The notes beneath the pieces are model-generated. The model saw only the letters and a program-made list of their open reading frames with translations, was not told where the DNA came from and did not search any database. Positions 720 to 9,125 of a stretch of 64,000 nt of DNA are shown here, piece after piece. The position numbers were made by a program, and so were the translations under genes. The DNA is taken from assembly GCA_903877125.1 (NCBI GenBank), contig CAIRCM010000216.1, positions 1 to 64,000 of the forward strand, given 5' to 3'. Numbering within the stretch: the first letter of the stretch is position 1; each line of letters starts with the position of its first letter. The DNA is from an uncultured Acetobacteraceae bacterium. Its GTDB lineage: Bacteria; Pseudomonadota; Alphaproteobacteria; Acetobacterales; Acetobacteraceae.

Positions 720-866
720 GGGTTTCGGGGTCCTTGTATGTTCTTTTTTTGTTCTAGATGAAGCATTCAGACCGAAGCAAGAAAAAATAACATCATCGTT
801 AGTTTCCAGTGCTATGACAGCCGGTTTCAGTTGCATCGAGCGCTCGCCGGGGCTACTCCGGACGAC

Positions 867-2012
867 ATGGATAAATCCCTTATCGACACGCTGACCGCCT
901 GGCGGCGGCACCTGCACTCGCATCCGGAACTGACGCTGCACGAGCGGGAAACGTCGCTGTTCGTGCAGGCGAAGCTGACCGAACTGGGGGTACCGTTCGT
1001 GGCAGGGGTGGGCGGACACGGGGTTGTGGCGACGCTGACGCGGGGATCGTCCAACCGGTCGGTCGGGCTGCGGGCGGATATGGATGCACTGCCGATCGAG
1101 GAGACGTCGGGGGCGCCGCATGCGTCGCGGACTCCGGGTGTGATGCATGCGTGCGGGCATGACGGACACACGGTGTCCCTGCTGGGGGCGGCGGCGCTGC
1201 TGCGGCAGGATCCGTCGTGGTCGGGGACGGTGCAGTTCGTGTTCCAGCCGGCGGAAGAAGGCGGCGGCGGGGCGAAGCACATGATCGCCGACGGGCTGTT
1301 CGAGCGGTTCCCGATGGAGCGCATCTTTGGCTATCACAACTGGCCGGGGCTGGCGGCCGGGGCGGTCGCGGTGCACGACAGCGCGGTGATGGCAGCGGGC
1401 AACCGGCTGATCTTCAAGGTCAAGGGGCACGGCGGGCACGCGGCGCTGCCGCATTTGACTCGGGATCCAATGGTGGCGGCAGCGCATCTGGTGCTGGCGT
1501 TGCAGTCGGTGGTGTCGCGGGAGAGCGACCCGATGGACAGCGTGGTGATCACGATCGGCATCATCCAGGGCGGGACGGCGGCGAACCAGGTTCCCGGGGA
1601 TGTGCTGGTGCGGGGCACAATGCGGGTGCTGAGCGATGCGACGCGGGATCGGGTGGAGGCGGCGATCCATCGCGTGGCAACGGGCGTGGCACTGACATGC
1701 GGGGTGGAGATCGAGGTTTCCATTCCGCGGGGGAATCCGGTGACGCTGAATACGGCGGATGGGGTGGCGATGGCGTCCGACGCGGCAATGCGGGCGGGGC
1801 TGGCGCTGCGGCGTGACTTGGGACCGGCGATGACGGGGGAGGATTTCGCATGGTTTCTCCAGCAGCGGCCGGGGGCGTTCGTTTGGATCGGCAACGGGCC
1901 GACGGATGGCGGCCGAGAGTTGCATAACGCGAACTACGACTTCAACGACGCGATTTTGCCGGCGGCGGCGGGGTTTTTGGCGGGTGTGGCGAAGCGGGCG
2001 CTGGAGGGGTAG
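867..2012 (+). CDS. M20 family amidohydrolase (hippurate hydrolase / N-acyl amino acid hydrolase type)
   Basis: A 381-residue zinc-dependent amidohydrolase that would release amino acids from N-acyl or amide conjugates. The family metal motif CGHDGH is at residues 96-101, the catalytic Glu pair in FQPAEEG at 130-131, and HNWPG follows. The dimerisation domain begins near residue 180. An in-frame ATG also lies 36 bases upstream at 831; I prefer 867 because the homology-like sequence starts there, but neither start has a strong ribosome binding site. A second M20 enzyme lies at 7.9-9.1 kb on the other side of the liv transporter, which fits import and hydrolysis of amino acid derivatives. Exact substrate unknown. 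Confidence 0.9.
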   Translation: MDKSLIDTLTAWRRHLHSHPELTLHERETSLFVQAKLTELGVPFVAGVGGHGVVATLTRGSSNRSVGLRADMDALPIEETSGAPHASRTPGVMHACGHDGHTVSLLGAAALLRQDPSWSGTVQFVFQPAEEGGGGAKHMIADGLFERFPMERIFGYHNWPGLAAGAVAVHDSAVMAAGNRLIFKVKGHGGHAALPHLTRDPMVAAAHLVLALQSVVSRESDPMDSVVITIGIIQGGTAANQVPGDVLVRGTMRVLSDATRDRVEAAIHRVATGVALTCGVEIEVSIPRGNPVTLNTADGVAMASDAAMRAGLALRRDLGPAMTGEDFAWFLQQRPGAFVWIGNGPTDGGRELHNANYDFNDAILPAAAGFLAGVAKRALEG

Positions 2013-2614: not shown

Positions 2615-3328
2615 TCAGACCTCCAGCCACTCCCGTTGCACCGAGGTATCGGCATCGAGATCCGCGGGCGTGCCTTCGAACACGATGCGGCCGTGACCCA
2701 TGACGTAGAGGCGGTGGGAGATTTTCAGGGCGATGGTCAGTTTCTGTTCGACCAGCAGAATGGCGATGCCACGTTTGGCGATTTCCGCCAGCAGGACGCC
2801 GACCTGTTCGACCATGCGGGGTGCCAGCCCCTCGGTCGGTTCGTCGATCAGGATCAGGTCGGGGTCGCCCATCAGGGTGCGGCAGATCGTCAGCATCTGT
2901 TGCTCCCCGCCGGACAGAACGCCGGCGGGATTGTTCTGGCGTTGTTGCAGGTTCGGGAACAGGCGAAAGACATCGTCGAAATTCCAGCGGCCGAAGATGC
3001 CGGACCGGCGCAGACCGAGTTCGAGGTTCTGGCGCACCGTCAGGGTCGGGAACACCTGCCGATCCTCCGGCACGTAGCCGATGCCGGCTCGGGAAATCAG
3101 GTCGGTGCGCATGCCGGTCACGGACCGGCCGCGGAACGTTACATCTCCATGCGCCTCGACGAGCCCCATGATCGCCTTGCAGGTGGTCGAACGGCCGACG
3201 CCGTTACGCCCGAGCAGACTGACGATTTCGCCTTCGTTGACGTCGAGGGCGACGCCTTGGAGGATGTGGCTCTTGCCGTAATAGGCGTGCAGGTCGCGCA
3301 CCGCCAGGATGTTCGCATGGTCTGCCAT
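2615..3328 (-). CDS. livF: Branched-chain amino acid type ABC transporter, ATP-binding protein LivF
   Basis: A 237-residue ATPase that would power uptake of the ligand bound by the periplasmic protein encoded at 6.4-7.7 kb. Its signature LSGGEQ (138-143) and Walker B LILIDEP (158-164) are normal, and VEQ at 193-195 is usual for LivF. The Walker A reads GRNGVGRST (40-48): the phosphate-binding Lys is Arg46 (codon CGT, checked on the nucleotides). The ATG at 3328 overlaps the livG stop as TGATG; a GTG at 3331 is an alternative. This is the last gene of livJHMGF. The Lys-to-Arg change, together with the LivG signature change, suggests an asymmetric ATPase pair (see findings). Confidence 0.93.
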   Translation of the reverse strand: MADHANILAVRDLHAYYGKSHILQGVALDVNEGEIVSLLGRNGVGRSTTCKAIMGLVEAHGDVTFRGRSVTGMRTDLISRAGIGYVPEDRQVFPTLTVRQNLELGLRRSGIFGRWNFDDVFRLFPNLQQRQNNPAGVLSGGEQQMLTICRTLMGDPDLILIDEPTEGLAPRMVEQVGVLLAEIAKRGIAILLVEQKLTIALKISHRLYVMGHGRIVFEGTPADLDADTSVQREWLEV

Positions 3329-4080
3329 CACTCGGTCAGCGCCCCCAGATAGGCTTCCTTCACCGCCCTGTCGTTTCGAATGTCTTCCGGCTTTCCGGAC
3401 GCGATGACCTGGCCGTAGACGACGACGCTGATGCGGTCGGCGAGGCCGAAGACGACCCCCATGTCATGTTCCACCATCAGCAGTGTCTTGCCTTCGGTGA
3501 CACGGCGGATGAGGGCCTGGGCGTATTCGGTTTCGCTGTGGCTCATGCCGGCGGTGGGTTCGTCGAGCAGGACGACCGTCGCGCCGCCGGCGATGGTGAT
3601 GCCGATTTCGAGCGCGCGCTGCTCGGCGTAGGAGAGCAGGCCGGCCTGCAGGTCGCGGCGGGAGGCGAGGTTGAGTTCGTCGAGGAGTTGTTCGGCTTGG
3701 CGATTGAGGGCTTTCTGGGTCCAGAGCGGGCTCCAGAACGAATAGCGGTAGCCGCTGGACCAGAGCAGCGCGCAGCGGATGTTCTCGAACACCGTCATGC
3801 GGTGGAAGATCGAGGTGATCTGGAAGCTGCGCGAGAGGCCGAGGCGGGAGATGTTCTGCGGCGGCAGTTGATCGATGCGGGTGCCGTTCAGGGCGATGCT
3901 GCCGGACGAGATCGGGAAGCGGCCACTGATGAGGTTGAACAGCGTGGTTTTGCCGGCGCCGTTGGGGCCGATGATGGCGTGGCGCTCGCCCCTGGCGATG
4001 TCGAGATCGACGCCGCGAATGATCTCCACGGGTCCGAAATTTTTGCGCACGTTCTTGAGGCTGAGGGCCGGCGCTTCCAT
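3328..4080 (-). CDS. livG: Branched-chain amino acid type ABC transporter, ATP-binding protein LivG
   Basis: A 250-residue ATPase that would pair with LivF. Walker A GPNGAGKT is at 38-45, Walker B VVLLDEP at 169-175, and a canonical switch His (VEHD) at 203-206. The ABC signature reads LSYAEQ (149-154), with Ala where the family normally has Gly. I start it at ATG 4080, which overlaps the livM stop as TAATG; the open frame continues to 4470, but that extension lies inside livM and is not protein-like. With LivF it should form one full ATP site (LivG Walker A plus LivF signature) and one degenerate site. Confidence 0.93.
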   Translation of the reverse strand: MEAPALSLKNVRKNFGPVEIIRGVDLDIARGERHAIIGPNGAGKTTLFNLISGRFPISSGSIALNGTRIDQLPPQNISRLGLSRSFQITSIFHRMTVFENIRCALLWSSGYRYSFWSPLWTQKALNRQAEQLLDELNLASRRDLQAGLLSYAEQRALEIGITIAGGATVVLLDEPTAGMSHSETEYAQALIRRVTEGKTLLMVEHDMGVVFGLADRISVVVYGQVIASGKPEDIRNDRAVKEAYLGALTE

Positions 4081-5375
4081 TACAGGCTCCTGTCCTTGAG
4101 GTCGGCGTTCAGATCGTCCCAGATTCGGGCGAAGGCGCGGCATTCGCGGCGCAGCCAGATGCCGCCGCCGATCAGCAGGATGGCGGTGACGATCCAGGGT
4201 TGCGGGGTCCAGACCTGGATCGTTTCGCCGAACAGCACGAGGTGCTTGCCCTGTGCCTCCCCGATGGTGAGGAAGGAGGTCAGTTCGACCGCGCCGGAAA
4301 AGCCGATCAGGGTCGCGAAAGCGGGGATTGAGAGGCGGAGATAGGGCACCAGCAGGCGGCCGAGGCGGCCAGCGCGGGCAAGCGGGCCGTGGGCGCCGAT
4401 GATTCCGGCGAGACCGGAGGGGGCGAAAGTCACCATGCCGATGAAGAGTACGCCGACATAGATCAGCCATGCATTCGACAGCAGGCTCAGGCCGCTTTGC
4501 AGCAGGGTGATCAGGATCGCGCCGAGGATTGGGCCATAGAAGAAGGTCGCTCCGCCGATATAGGTCATCAGCACGACGTTGGCCGACAGGGCACCGGAGA
4601 CGGCGTCGTAGGTGACGATTTCATAGGTGATCGCGTAAAGCCCACCGCCGATGCCGGCGAAGAAGCCGGACAGGGCGAATTGCAGGAAGCGGACTCGGCG
4701 GGGGTCGTAGCCCATGAAGCGGGCGCGCTCGAAATTGTCGCGGGTGGCGTTGGCCATGGCGCCGAGCGGGGTTTTGGTGAGGAAGAGCATGCCGAGGGCG
4801 GCGAGGACGGTCCAGGCGAGAATGAGGTAGTAGACCTGGACCGAGGCGCCGTAGGACAGGCCGAACAGGCTGGATGCGTTGGTGCGATCGGTGCTGATGC
4901 CGCCCTCGCCGCCGAAGAAATGGTGGAACATGATGCCGGCGGTGGTGGTGAGTTCACCAAGACCGAGGGTGATCATGGCGAAGGCGGTGGCGCGCTGGGT
5001 GGCGGCGATGTAGCCATAGACAATGCCGAAGCCGAGCCCGGTGAGACCGGCGCAGAGCGGGATCAGTTCCAACGGGACCGGGAACGAATGGTGTCCAGCT
5101 GCCTCCAGGAAGTGGACGGTGCAGTAGCCGCCGAGGCCGAACAGCACGGCGTGGCCGAAGGAGAGCAGACCGGATTGCCCCATCAGCATGTTGTACGACA
5201 GGGAGAAGATGACCATCATGCCCATCTGGCTCATCATCGTCAGGACGAAGCCGGACTGGCGGGCGGTGTGCCAGTCGTAGAAGACCCATGGCATGGCGAC
5301 GCCGATGAGGATCAGAGCGGCCCAGAGCCAAAGCTGGCGGGACCGTTTTGGCGGCTTGGCGGCGGCTTCGTTCAT
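4080..5375 (-). CDS. livM: Branched-chain amino acid type ABC transporter permease LivM
   Basis: A 431-residue inner-membrane permease. The core resembles LivM (GQSGLLSFGHAVLFGLGGY near residues 65-83; later GATFFYGPILGA). LivM proteins are usually about 300-350 residues; this one carries a C-terminal extension of roughly 100 residues with two more hydrophobic segments (one around SIPAFATLIGF, one around WIVTAILLIGGGIWL), then a charged tail. Its ATG overlaps the livH stop by four bases and its stop overlaps the livG start, so the three genes are translationally coupled. The extension may contact the ATPases or an extra partner; that is inference. Confidence 0.92.
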   Translation of the reverse strand: MNEAAAKPPKRSRQLWLWAALILIGVAMPWVFYDWHTARQSGFVLTMMSQMGMMVIFSLSYNMLMGQSGLLSFGHAVLFGLGGYCTVHFLEAAGHHSFPVPLELIPLCAGLTGLGFGIVYGYIAATQRATAFAMITLGLGELTTTAGIMFHHFFGGEGGISTDRTNASSLFGLSYGASVQVYYLILAWTVLAALGMLFLTKTPLGAMANATRDNFERARFMGYDPRRVRFLQFALSGFFAGIGGGLYAITYEIVTYDAVSGALSANVVLMTYIGGATFFYGPILGAILITLLQSGLSLLSNAWLIYVGVLFIGMVTFAPSGLAGIIGAHGPLARAGRLGRLLVPYLRLSIPAFATLIGFSGAVELTSFLTIGEAQGKHLVLFGETIQVWTPQPWIVTAILLIGGGIWLRRECRAFARIWDDLNADLKDRSL

Positions 5376-6319
5376 GTGTCGCGGGTCCCCATCAGGCCGC
5401 GCGGGCGGAACATCAGTATCCCGACCATCATGGCATAGGGCAGCAACGGGCCGACGCGGGAGACTGGGATCGACAGTATCTCGCCGGCGAGGTTGTCGGT
5501 GCCGATCCAGGCGACGATGGGGCCGAGCAGATCGGCGAGCGAGCCGTCGATCGAGACGGCGAAGGTCTGCACCATGCCGATGACGATGGATGAGACGAAG
5601 CAGCCGCTGAGTGATCCGAGGCCGCCGAAGACGACGACGACGAAGACGATGGGCCCGAGGGAGGCAGCCATGGCGGGTTCGGTGACCTGATAGTTACCGC
5701 CGATCACGCCGGCGAGCCCGGCGAGGTAGCAGCCGCCGGCGAACACCAGGGTGAAGACTCGGGGGACGTTATGTCCGAGCGAACTGACCATCTGGGGATG
5801 GGTCAGGGAGGCCTGGATGATCAGGCCGACACGGGTGCGGGTCAGCAGCAGGCGGATCGCCAGCAGCATCCCGCCGGCGATCAGCAGCATGAAGGCGCGA
5901 TAGGCTGGGAAGTCGACGCCGTAGAGGCGGAACAGCGGGAAATCGAGGAGCGCGGGCACGCGGTACGGTACAGGCAGCATGCCCCAGACCATCTGGACTC
6001 CCCGTTCGATGATGAAGAACAGGCCGAAGGTGAAGAGCAGTTCGGCGATATGGCCGTTATGGTGGGTGCGGCGGAGGCCCCAGACCTCGATCCCCGCGCC
6101 GATGGCGGCGCAGACGAGGGGGGCTACGATCAGGGCGGCCCAGAAGCCGATCAGGCGGCTCATGTCGAAGGCGACGTAGGCGCCGATCATGTAGATTCCG
6201 GCATGGGCGAAATTGAGCACGCCCATCATGGAGAAGATCAGGGTCAGGCCGCTGGCCAGCATGAACAGGAGCATGCCGTAGACGAAGCCGTTCAAGAGGG
6301 GATTAAGGACTATCTCCAT
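5372..6319 (-). CDS. livH: Branched-chain amino acid type ABC transporter permease LivH
   Basis: A 315-residue inner-membrane permease, almost entirely hydrophobic, with the LivH-like start NPLLNGFVYGMLLFMLASGLT and the segment GVLNFAHAGIYMIGAY. I start it at ATG 6319, where the first helix begins; an open frame runs 20 codons further upstream but is not membrane-like. It partners LivM to form the translocation path for the ligand of the binding protein encoded upstream. The 90-base gap to the binding-protein gene holds no clear terminator, so all five liv genes are probably one transcript. Confidence 0.92.
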   Translation of the reverse strand: MEIVLNPLLNGFVYGMLLFMLASGLTLIFSMMGVLNFAHAGIYMIGAYVAFDMSRLIGFWAALIVAPLVCAAIGAGIEVWGLRRTHHNGHIAELLFTFGLFFIIERGVQMVWGMLPVPYRVPALLDFPLFRLYGVDFPAYRAFMLLIAGGMLLAIRLLLTRTRVGLIIQASLTHPQMVSSLGHNVPRVFTLVFAGGCYLAGLAGVIGGNYQVTEPAMAASLGPIVFVVVVFGGLGSLSGCFVSSIVIGMVQTFAVSIDGSLADLLGPIVAWIGTDNLAGEILSIPVSRVGPLLPYAMMVGILMFRPRGLMGTRDT

Positions 6320-6409
6320 CGCGTCGCGTCCACCGTTATGTGCGGAGAGACGGTTCGGCCCGTTTGCGAGCCGAACCATTTGTCCATTTTCATCGGAAAC
6401 GCCGGGGCG

Positions 6410-7663
6410 TCAGGTGCCGTCCGGGCGTTTCATCTGACAGGCGGTGGGGAAGGTCAGGTCTTCGGCGCTGACCATGCTCTCGGTCTTCCAGCCCCAGCCG
6501 GTGCCTTCGGAGTCATTGGGGACGGGTTTGGTGAAGAGCGCGGTGTAGAGCGGCATCTGGATTTGATGGTCGGCCTTCCGCATGGTGTTGACGTGGCCGT
6601 AGATGTCGGTGGTTTGCATCCCTTCGAGCGCCAATGCGACCTTCAGGGGGTCGGTGGAGCCGGCCTTATTGATGGCGGCGGCGAGCATATCGAAGGTGGT
6701 CTGGAAATTGGTCCAGACGAAATCGATGCCGGGCTTGGTGTCGCGCCAGCGTTTGACGAAATCTTCGGCGGTCGGGATGTGGTTGTCCGCGCCGACATTG
6801 TCGTGGCCTTCCAGCACGGTGATGGTGCGGTTGCCGCCTTCGGGGCCCATGGATGTCGGGCCGCCGTTGAGGTGGGCGGAGAAGGTGTAATACTTGATAT
6901 CGAGGCCGCCTTCGTTACCGGATTTCATCAACAGATTGAAATCGGGGCCCCAGTTGGAGGTAATCAACGCCTGCGCGCCAGATTCCTTTATCTTTGGGAT
7001 ATAGGATGAGAAGTCCTTGATCTTGCCCATCGGCACGAATTCGTCGCCGACGATCTTTACGTCGGGGCGGAATTTCGCGAGGAATTTTTTTGTATCGCTT
7101 TCGACGCCCTGCCCGTACAGGTAGTCCTGATTCATCAGGTAAACCTTGGTGATGTCCTTAGGCAGGCCCTTGATCAGGCTGGCGACGCGCTGGGTGACGT
7201 TGGAAGCGAAGCGGAAGTGCCAGAAGCTGCAATTTTCCTCTGTTAGCGGCATGGAAAGCGCGGACAGGTTCAGATAAAGCGCGCGGTGCTCGGGATTGCG
7301 GCGGTTGTATTTTTCGACGCCCTCTTCCATCGCCGCGGCGACGTTGGAGCCGATGCCGCCTAGGATGATGGGCAGGTTCTGGTCGGTCGCGGCTTTGAGC
7401 TGGATGAGTGCCTCGGCTGGCTGGATCTTGTCGTCGAACGTGACGAGTTCGAATTTTTTGCCGAGTGCGCCGCCTTTGGCGTTGACGTTGTTCATGGCGA
7501 AGGTCAGCATTTTCAGCCAAGCATCGCCGTTGGCCGCGAAAGCGCCGGAGAAGGGGGCGATGAACGCGATCTTGATGGTGTCCTCGGCACGCGCGAGGCC
7601 ACTGCCCAGGCACATTCCGGCCGACAAGGCACCCGCCGCCAAGCAGCGGAGATACTTCTTCAT
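6410..7663 (-). CDS. ABC transporter substrate-binding protein, branched-chain amino acid/amide family
   Basis: A 417-residue periplasmic ligand-binding protein. It opens with a Sec signal peptide (MKKYLRCLAAGALSAGMCLG, cleavage probably after LARA) followed by the type 1 periplasmic binding fold (IKIAFIAPFSGAFAANGDAW). The start at 7663 is set by a strong GGGAGG site 4 bases upstream; another in-frame start at 7675 is less well placed. It heads the livJHMGF operon. Members bind branched-chain amino acids, amides, urea or aromatic acids. Two nearby M20 amidohydrolases suggest an amino acid derivative; the true ligand cannot be read from the sequence. Confidence 0.92.
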   Translation of the reverse strand: MKKYLRCLAAGALSAGMCLGSGLARAEDTIKIAFIAPFSGAFAANGDAWLKMLTFAMNNVNAKGGALGKKFELVTFDDKIQPAEALIQLKAATDQNLPIILGGIGSNVAAAMEEGVEKYNRRNPEHRALYLNLSALSMPLTEENCSFWHFRFASNVTQRVASLIKGLPKDITKVYLMNQDYLYGQGVESDTKKFLAKFRPDVKIVGDEFVPMGKIKDFSSYIPKIKESGAQALITSNWGPDFNLLMKSGNEGGLDIKYYTFSAHLNGGPTSMGPEGGNRTITVLEGHDNVGADNHIPTAEDFVKRWRDTKPGIDFVWTNFQTTFDMLAAAINKAGSTDPLKVALALEGMQTTDIYGHVNTMRKADHQIQMPLYTALFTKPVPNDSEGTGWGWKTESMVSAEDLTFPTACQMKRPDGT

Positions 7664-7724
7664 GAAACCTCCCAATTTTTAACGGTCGCCTTGAATTCCG
7701 GCGATCGTCTCTTGTTCTTTAGGA

Positions 7725-7949: not shown

Positions 7950-9125
7950 TCAAGGCAAAAGCTCCGCGCCTGTCCTGGCTTCGGCGATCCGAGCGAGGAG
8001 CGATGCGCCGATCGGCGTCACGGCGTCATTGAAATCGTACCGAGGGTTGTGCAAGGCTGGACCTTCCCCTTGCCCGAGGAACAGGAACGCCCCCGGCACG
8101 ACCGCGAGCATTTCGGCGAAATCCTCGCTTCCGCTCACCGGCTGGTCGACCACGCGCGCAAGGTCCGGTCCCACCAGATCGCGTGCGATGGCGATCGCGG
8201 CTCGGGACTCGCCCTGCCCATTCACGACGGCAGGAAACCGCGGGGTGATGATCGCCTCGGCTTCAACCCCGAACCCGGCCCCGACCGCCTGGGCGATGGT
8301 CGCAAGCCGTTCGGCGACCAGTGCTCGGGTCACCGGGTCGAAGGTTCGGATCGTCCCGCCGAGGGTGGCGACATCGGGTATCACGTTGTAGGCGGAGCCC
8401 GCGTGCAGCATGGTGACGGACACCACCGCCGTGCGCATCGGTTCGACGTTACGGCTGACGATCGTCTGCAGGGCCTGCGCGATCGCCGTCGCAGCCATGA
8501 TCGGGTCCGCTGCCTGATGCGGCATCGCGCCATGCGCCCCCCTGCCCTGGATGCGGATATCGAACTGGTCGCTCGCCGCCAATGCGACGCCGGGTTTGAC
8601 CGTGATTTCACCGAGGGGCGCGCCGGGCCAATTATGCAGCCCGTAGATTTCATCGCACGGAAAGCGACTGAACAGTCCGTCCGCGATCATTGCCCGAGCG
8701 CCACCCACCCCTTCTTCGGCGGGCTGGAAAATGAGCACGACATCTCCGGCGAACCGGCGTGTGGATGCGAGGTAACGCGCCGCGCCGAGAAGCATGGTGG
8801 TGTGACCATCGTGACCGCAACCATGGAAGGCACCCGGGTTGACCGAGGCGTGGATGGCGCCGGTCGCCTCGGTCATCGGCAGTGCGTCCATGTCCGCCCG
8901 CAGCCCGATCCGGCGGCCTGGGCGGTTGCCACGGATCACCCCGACGACTCCGGTGCCGCCCAGCCCTCGATGCACCTCGACACCCCACTCAGCCAGCCGG
9001 GCAGCGACGATGGCCGCGGTTCGATGCTCGTGAAAACCGATTTCAGGATGAGCGTGGATGTCGCGGCGGATCTTGGTCAGGTCGGCCGCGTGCGCCAGAA
9101 TTTCGGAGATCAGTTCCATGGTCAT
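7950..9125 (-). CDS. M20 family amidohydrolase (hippurate hydrolase / N-acyl amino acid hydrolase type)
   Basis: A 391-residue zinc amidohydrolase paralogous to the one at 0.9-2.0 kb. CGHDGH is at residues 103-108, the catalytic FQPAEEG Glu pair at 137-138, and HNWPG follows. The start at 9125 has GGAG 5 bases upstream; a second ATG two codons later is possible. It probably hydrolyses N-acyl or aryl-acyl amino acids. It follows the frameshifted MHS transporter on the same strand with a 17-base gap, so it may be the last gene of the glycine-riboswitch transcript, linking it to amino acid catabolism. Confidence 0.92.
   Translation of the reverse strand: MTMELISEILAHAADLTKIRRDIHAHPEIGFHEHRTAAIVAARLAEWGVEVHRGLGGTGVVGVIRGNRPGRRIGLRADMDALPMTEATGAIHASVNPGAFHGCGHDGHTTMLLGAARYLASTRRFAGDVVLIFQPAEEGVGGARAMIADGLFSRFPCDEIYGLHNWPGAPLGEITVKPGVALAASDQFDIRIQGRGAHGAMPHQAADPIMAATAIAQALQTIVSRNVEPMRTAVVSVTMLHAGSAYNVIPDVATLGGTIRTFDPVTRALVAERLATIAQAVGAGFGVEAEAIITPRFPAVVNGQGESRAAIAIARDLVGPDLARVVDQPVSGSEDFAEMLAVVPGAFLFLGQGEGPALHNPRYDFNDAVTPIGASLLARIAEARTGAELLP

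Follow-up and report, generated by a model that had tools for sequence, protein, structure and literature searches.

Are the two ATP sites of a LIV-type importer equivalent and, if not, which of them would drive import? In the customary view of bacterial importers, exemplified by the maltose system and its pair of identical ATPases, the two ATP sites are equal. The question is raised by an operon located near the beginning of the window, that is, the whole stretch of 64,000 nucleotides of DNA that was analysed. This operon, identified from open reading frames and Pfam matches, has the following organization.

2615-7675, minus strand: five-gene LIV-type importer operon
2615..3328, minus strand: livF, ATPase subunit with an Arg Walker A, 237 amino acids (ATG at 3328, stop at 2615)
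3328..4080, minus strand: livG, ATPase subunit with Ala in its signature, 250 amino acids (ATG at 4080, stop ending at 3328)
4080..5375, minus strand: livM-like permease (PF02653)
5372..6379, minus strand: livH-like permease (PF02653)
6410..7675, minus strand: periplasmic substrate-binding protein (PF13458)

The gene content, a binding protein with two permeases of family PF02653 and two ATPases, is that of a LIV/HAAT importer. The C-terminus of LivG carries the LivG-type domain PF12399 (40.3 bits, cut-off 25.5). The earliest possible start of livF is a GTG at 3331. The NCBIfam models of the E. coli-type equivalogs score well below their cut-offs (172.8 versus 441 bits for LivF, 182.5 versus 362 for LivG), and the window pair is best regarded, from these scores, as a relative rather than as an E. 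coli-type LivF/LivG equivalog. The best NCBIfam scores are those of UrtE (222.7, cut-off 285.8) and UrtD (205.2, cut-off 304.1), ahead of the LivF and LivG models but still below cut-off, so that the pair is not assigned to the urea importer ATPases UrtDE either. It also differs from the CUT2 type, in which two ATPase domains are fused, livG and livF being separate genes that overlap by one base (TGATG). Among solved structures, the top match of LivF is 1ji0. The matches with E up to 1e-30 were 1ji0, other chains whose names say no more than ABC transporter protein, and exporters of the ABCA type; no pair named LivF/LivG was seen among them. A broken or decaying operon was considered and rejected, since the five genes have open reading frames throughout and the unusual residues described below are kept clade-wide with varied codons.

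In ABC ATPase dimers, each nucleotide site draws its Walker A, Q-loop, Walker B and H-loop from one ATPase and its signature from the partner (available part of PMC7756269). The motifs of the two subunits, all on the minus strand, are as follows.

3185..3211, minus strand: LivF Walker A, GRNGVGRST, with Arg46 (codon CGT, 3191-3193)
3065..3067, minus strand: LivF Q-loop, YVPEDRQ, with Glu88 replacing Gln
2897..2917, minus strand: LivF signature, LSGGEQQ, standard
2840..2842, minus strand: LivF Walker B, LILIDEP, with Glu163 kept, standard
2744..2746, minus strand: LivF H-loop, LLVEQKL (VEQ), with Gln195 replacing His
3943..3969, minus strand: LivG Walker A, GPNGAGKTT, with Lys44, standard
3820..3822, minus strand: LivG Q-loop, Gln87, standard
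3616..3636, minus strand: LivG signature, LSYAEQR, with Ala152 (codon GCC, 3625-3627)
3466..3468, minus strand: LivG H-loop, LMVEHDM, with His205, standard

Thus, the residues given in the first-pass annotation, namely Arg46 in GRNGVGRST and the VEQ of LivF together with LSYAEQ, GPNGAGKT and VEHD of LivG, are correct to the letter. The same annotation proposed that the site combining the LivF Walker A with the LivG signature was altered in three motifs. These three changes are indeed present, but a fourth, Glu88 in the Q-loop, had been overlooked. Four of the five key positions of this site are therefore changed (Lys to Arg, Gln to Glu, His to Gln, Gly to Ala) and the Walker B Glu, present in LivF and LivG alike, is the only standard one. 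At the other site, formed by the LivG Walker A and the LivF signature, none of the five positions is changed. The assignment of motifs to sites takes the LivF/LivG heterodimer as an assumption from the operon.

In order to place the window pair within its family, LivG/LivF pairs were collected from related loci, from searches of the window's own genome, phylum, class and family, and from 80 fetched regions. Further pairs came from a search of the phylum to which locus L054 (a Desulfohalobiaceae record) belongs, from searching 16 genomes reached through the loci for PF12399, and from searching for the same domain the phyla of two of these genomes, with records titled Williamsia (flagged in the title as unverified contamination) and Halalkalibacter. 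At most 30 loci were taken per search. From 355 LivG matches, 28 of which had no LivF partner in reach, 299 unique adjacent pairs were retained after removal of duplicates and short pieces. Being seeded from the window's family and from one Pfam domain, the survey is weighted to the relatives of the window and is not a random sample.

Within this set, the LivG-Walker A site is standard at all five positions (Lys, Gln, Glu, His and the Gly-Gly of the LivF signature) in 299 of 299 pairs, so that the intactness claimed for this site at the outset extends to the whole survey. Conversely, a fully standard LivF-Walker A/LivG-signature site is found in none of the 299 pairs: four of its five positions are standard in 29 pairs, three in 132, two in 45 and one in 93. 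The Walker A residue of LivF is Lys in 185 pairs and Arg in 114; that of LivG is never changed. The Q-loop column of LivF holds Glu in 271 pairs, Gln in 18, Asp in nine and Gly in one, and its H-loop column Gln in 283, His in 11 and Lys in five. The fourth position of the LivG signature is Gly in 182 pairs, Ala in 94, Ser in nine and another residue in 14. Thinning to less than 70% identity leaves 178 pairs and an unchanged picture, with the LivG-Walker A site still invariant. Asymmetry is thus general among the surveyed pairs, and the window's subfamily is its extreme. The 30 loci read in the window's own genome yield at least 13 LIV pairs, among which that of the window is the sole Arg pair and the most reduced.

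Three groups of unusual sequences were met in the course of the survey. Eleven LivF from the phylum of L054 have an H-loop His (VEHN, in one case CEHN), versus the other 288 of the 299 without it (L270, L272, L274, L277, L278, L286-L288, L290-L292). Five LivF belonging to one clade have Lys at the place of the H-loop His (IDK or VDK) and DEA at Walker B (L133, L223, L232, L241, L249). Finally, LivG whose signatures are strongly degenerate, such as LTNKQLR, LTQIEMR and ISQEERK, are found beside Lys-type LivF (L012, L017, L019, L062, L189, L216, L240, L243, L246, the first three in the window's genome).

Several readings of the asymmetry may be envisaged. As judged from the motifs, the window pair would probably be the ATPase pair of a LIV/HAAT-type importer in which one ATP site works and the other is impaired. 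Two observations argue for a single working site: the tally just described, five of five positions always standard on one side and never on the other, and the distribution of Walker A changes, which affect Lys in 114 of the 299 LivF and in none of the LivG. Two others count against it. The Walker B Glu is kept in 299 of 299 LivF, which would be odd for a site that does not hydrolyse ATP, and Arg, Ala and Gln are mild replacements. These observations are the basis of the opposite reading, in which both sites would hydrolyse: Arg46, Ala152, Gln195 and Glu88 would be adequate substitutes, the Walker B Glu would do the chemistry, and the asymmetry would be drift without effect. We regard this reading as unlikely, while giving it some weight. 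The substitutes are not only conservative but also kept, no Lys being found in the Arg clades described below and all 93 pairs of the window's clade having Ala or Ser at position 152. Yet the changes are confined to one of the two sites, the other being altered in no surveyed pair.

It may also be imagined that LivF and LivG do not function as a heterodimer with each other, in which case the motifs would combine into different sites. The number of LIV pairs in the genome would offer opportunities for subunits to be shared. However, overlaps of one to four bases join the LivH, LivM, LivG and LivF genes, and the complementary conservation is exact, with the LivG Walker A and the LivF signature standard in every adjacent pair. 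An alternative complex is therefore hardly to be expected.

The impaired-site reading leaves aside the question of whether the Arg of LivF and the altered signature of LivG depend on each other. The co-occurrence of the two changes across operons, a check proposed in the first-pass annotation, was examined in the 299 pairs: 86 combine Arg with Ala, seven Arg with Ser, 21 Arg with Gly, 161 Lys with Gly and 24 Lys with another residue. Arg does go with Ala or Ser in the window's own clade; elsewhere the pairing is not obligatory. In a tree of 126 pairs, from which all motif columns were excluded, the pairs that combine Arg with Ala or with Ser fall into a single clade (63 of 63 rows, SH-aLRT 100). 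This agrees with the earlier guess that the changes are a subfamily trait and not a defect. The sister group (12 rows, support 99), of which eleven rows come from the single search of the L054 phylum and one from the related-locus search, consists entirely of Lys and Gly pairs. One more Arg row was placed outside the window's clade, and led to a second Arg clade. One search, with 30 loci read, gave 20 Arg/Gly and 10 Lys/Gly pairs. All 21 pairs of this second clade (L258, L361-L378, L382, L390) keep the signature Gly in LivG. As a side feature, the Walker B Glu of its LivF is followed by Ile (DEI), a place that Pro occupies in the 10 Lys relatives collected alongside.

In a second tree, of 208 thinned pairs, the distribution of Lys and Arg needs two changes, each giving a pure Arg clade (41 rows, support 100; 18 rows, support 99). 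No Lys row falls within the window's Arg clade in either tree (63 of 63 rows and 41 of 41 rows are Arg). In the best tree of the 208 pairs, the distribution of Gly and non-Gly signatures needs nine changes, a count that cannot separate gain from loss; support is below 80 on 81 of the 205 inner branches of this tree. Within the 93 pairs of the window's clade, Arg46 is written with six codons, and residue 152 of LivG (Ala in 86, Ser in seven) with seven; these rows were selected by Arg, so that the presence of Arg in 93 of 93 is no test in itself.

The strongest form of dependence would be that Arg46 and Ala152 make a compensating pair, mutually required and facing the same nucleotide over the dimer interface. 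The association appears clean in the window's clade and its sister: the 93 Arg pairs all have Ala or Ser, and the 18 sister pairs picked for comparison all have Lys and Gly. Between these two sets only seven of 472 columns show no overlap, and LivF 46, which is the selected trait, and LivG 152 are among the seven. Three of these seven changed columns lie in the motifs of the LivF-Walker A site, versus 37 of the 472 columns (hypergeometric 0.012), an enrichment that is suggestive only, given that rows and columns are not independent and that the rows were split by such a column. Four annotated plasmid relatives are all of the Arg type, and the signature place is occupied by Ala in Sulfitobacter, Ala in Paracoccus, Ser in Thalassospira and Pro in Rhizobium. 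Against this, the Gly is present throughout the second Arg clade (21 of 21 pairs) and is lacking from 24 of the 185 Lys pairs. Moreover, the Arg and Ala of the window's clade arose once, on the same branch; because this joint origin is one event, the pairs do not sum to independent tests, and only two independent pairs can be drawn. Early counts of Arg pairs with Ala or Ser (88 of 88, 90 of 91, 93 of 94) gave an appearance of strong coupling because sampling tracked the window's own clade, and a Fisher value was set aside for taking no account of common descent. Obligatory coupling was accordingly rejected as a rule: on the present trees, Arg does not require Ala, nor does the loss of Gly require Arg. 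A compensating pair is, in our opinion, an improbable explanation.

Comparison with known systems helps to evaluate the impaired-site reading. E. coli LivF/LivG have the same operon layout; LivF has the Q-loop Glu (IVPEGRR) and the H-loop Gln (FLVEQNA), and the Walker A, Q-loop and H-loop of LivG are all standard. In contrast with the window pair, both the Walker A Lys of LivF (GANGAGKTT) and the signature Gly of LivG (LAYGDQR) are retained. As a consequence, three of the five positions of the LivF-Walker A site are standard in E. coli versus one in the window pair.

Closer likenesses at the Walker A are found in the CUT2 importers, whose permeases belong to the Pfam family PF02653 like those of the LIV importers. 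In the three E. coli proteins examined, RbsA, AraG and MglA, the Walker A of the second domain carries Arg (GLMGAGRTE, GLVGAGRSE and GLVGAKRTD, respectively). The second domains also carry Glu in the Q-loop column and lack the H-loop His, as read from alignments at 23-30% identity. In the first domain of MglA, Ser takes the place of the signature Gly (LSVSQ), and the corresponding site thus likewise retains only the Walker B Glu. This combination of Arg with Ser at equivalent places would suit a compensating pair, but RbsA and AraG combine Arg with Gly. There are also differences from LivF/LivG: the two domains are in one polypeptide, the H-loop place is occupied by Ser (SSE or SSD) and not Gln, the substrates are sugars, and in MglA a Lys stands one place ahead of the Walker A Arg. 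In a small tree, LivF groups with the CUT2 second domains (86) and LivG with the first (85), neither grouping being starred and the branches being long.

Among exporters, TM287/288, BmrCD, TAP and Pdr5 similarly have one standard and one non-standard site (PMC7756269, available part; BmrCD from another listing). In Pdr5, four motifs of the degenerate site are changed (same part of PMC7756269). In degenerate-site exporters, changes of the partner signature and of the Walker B Glu are common; the window LivF keeps this Glu, in the LILIDEP motif, and is part of an importer. The closest worked-out case is the mammalian sterol exporter ABCG5/G8, the CUT2 importers being nearer in ancestry. According to the available parts of PMC7756502 and PMC8403869, ABCG8 has Arg111 in its Walker A (GSSGCGRAS), the signature of its partner ABCG5 is altered (ISTGE), and for sterol export the site whose Walker A lacks the Arg is sufficient. 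The window shows the same pattern, with Arg46 in LivF and Ala152 in LivG, although another residue of the signature is changed in ABCG5 and no common origin is implied. In ABCG8, the replacement of Lys by Arg is accompanied by a displaced P-loop and lowered ATP binding (PMC8403869, available part), which speaks against the idea that Arg46 is an adequate substitute. On the other hand, when the H-loop of the active site of ABCC1 carries Gln or Asn, transport stays wild-type-like (PMC7756269, available part), which speaks for the reading in which both sites of the window pair hydrolyse. The first-pass annotation saw in the window pair a mirror of the degenerate-site exporters, but in an importer. 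The asymmetric anatomy bears this out, the retained Walker B Glu does not, and the importer case is already known from RbsA, AraG, MglA and NupO.

Considering all these data, the impaired-site reading may be developed as follows. Hydrolysis driving import would occur mainly at the LivG-Walker A/LivF-signature site. The LivF-Walker A/LivG-signature site would bind ATP weakly, or hold it with little turnover, and would serve as the structural half of a closing ATPase dimer. The widespread Q-loop Glu and H-loop Gln would have rendered this site dispensable for catalysis. Afterwards, replacement of the Walker A Lys by Arg would have been tolerated and fixed twice, and the signature Gly of LivG lost repeatedly. 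It is tempting, as a tentative and quite possible extension, to imagine that LIV importers overall are one-engine machines: the LivG-Walker A/LivF-signature site would drive import and the second site would be non-hydrolytic, with a structural or regulatory role. In the Arg clades, this second site would have lost hydrolysis and perhaps binding, with one ATP used per cycle, and the second domain of the CUT2 ATPases would reflect the same ancient asymmetry.

Site asymmetry as a type is known, with ABCG5/G8, RbsA and NupO as precedents; the degenerate sites of the importers RbsA and NupO are already published (PMC11466899, available part). For LivF/LivG, no report of asymmetry was found, by title and beginning of abstract, among the matches listed from open-licence PubMed Central, and LivF/G homologues are named only in an LptB sequence figure in the available part of PMC6703430. 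Likewise, no description of an asymmetry in all the surveyed LIV pairs, of the invariant other site or of the two Arg clades was found among these matches. LIV importers are numerous, as the window's genome illustrates, and if one of their sites is built to be non-hydrolytic, the ATP cost and the coupling of the whole family would change. The Arg clades offer natural and stable test cases, for which the nearest Lys/Gly relatives, some of them with an H-loop His, are matching controls. The interest is moderate and lies chiefly in that the one-engine question becomes testable for a large importer family.

The surroundings of the operon deserve some remarks. Two M20 amidohydrolases flank it, at 831-2012 (plus strand) and 7950-9125 (minus strand), both above the TIGR01891 cut-off, and the importer could take up an N-acylated or amide-linked compound. 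A search for M20 neighbours in the collected loci (frames of at least 150 amino acids, E 1e-20) matched only a locus copy of the window itself, most loci extending no more than 1.5-4 kb past the match. A conserved operon link to M20 amidohydrolases was thus not seen, and the four plasmid relatives are flanked by other genes. Their annotated operon order is the same in Sulfitobacter, Paracoccus and Thalassospira, several of the Rhizobium genes being called hypothetical; their neighbours are varied and include many catabolic genes. Finally, between the importer and an amidohydrolase gene, the window carries a pair of short frames on the minus strand. The first, at 2089-2349, has a weak match to the ParE toxin family when a piece of it is scanned (20.7 bits, under the cut-off of 23 bits; E 6e-4). 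The adjoining frame, at 2346-2531, encodes 61 amino acids with no family match over cut-off, and could be the antitoxin of the ParE-like frame.
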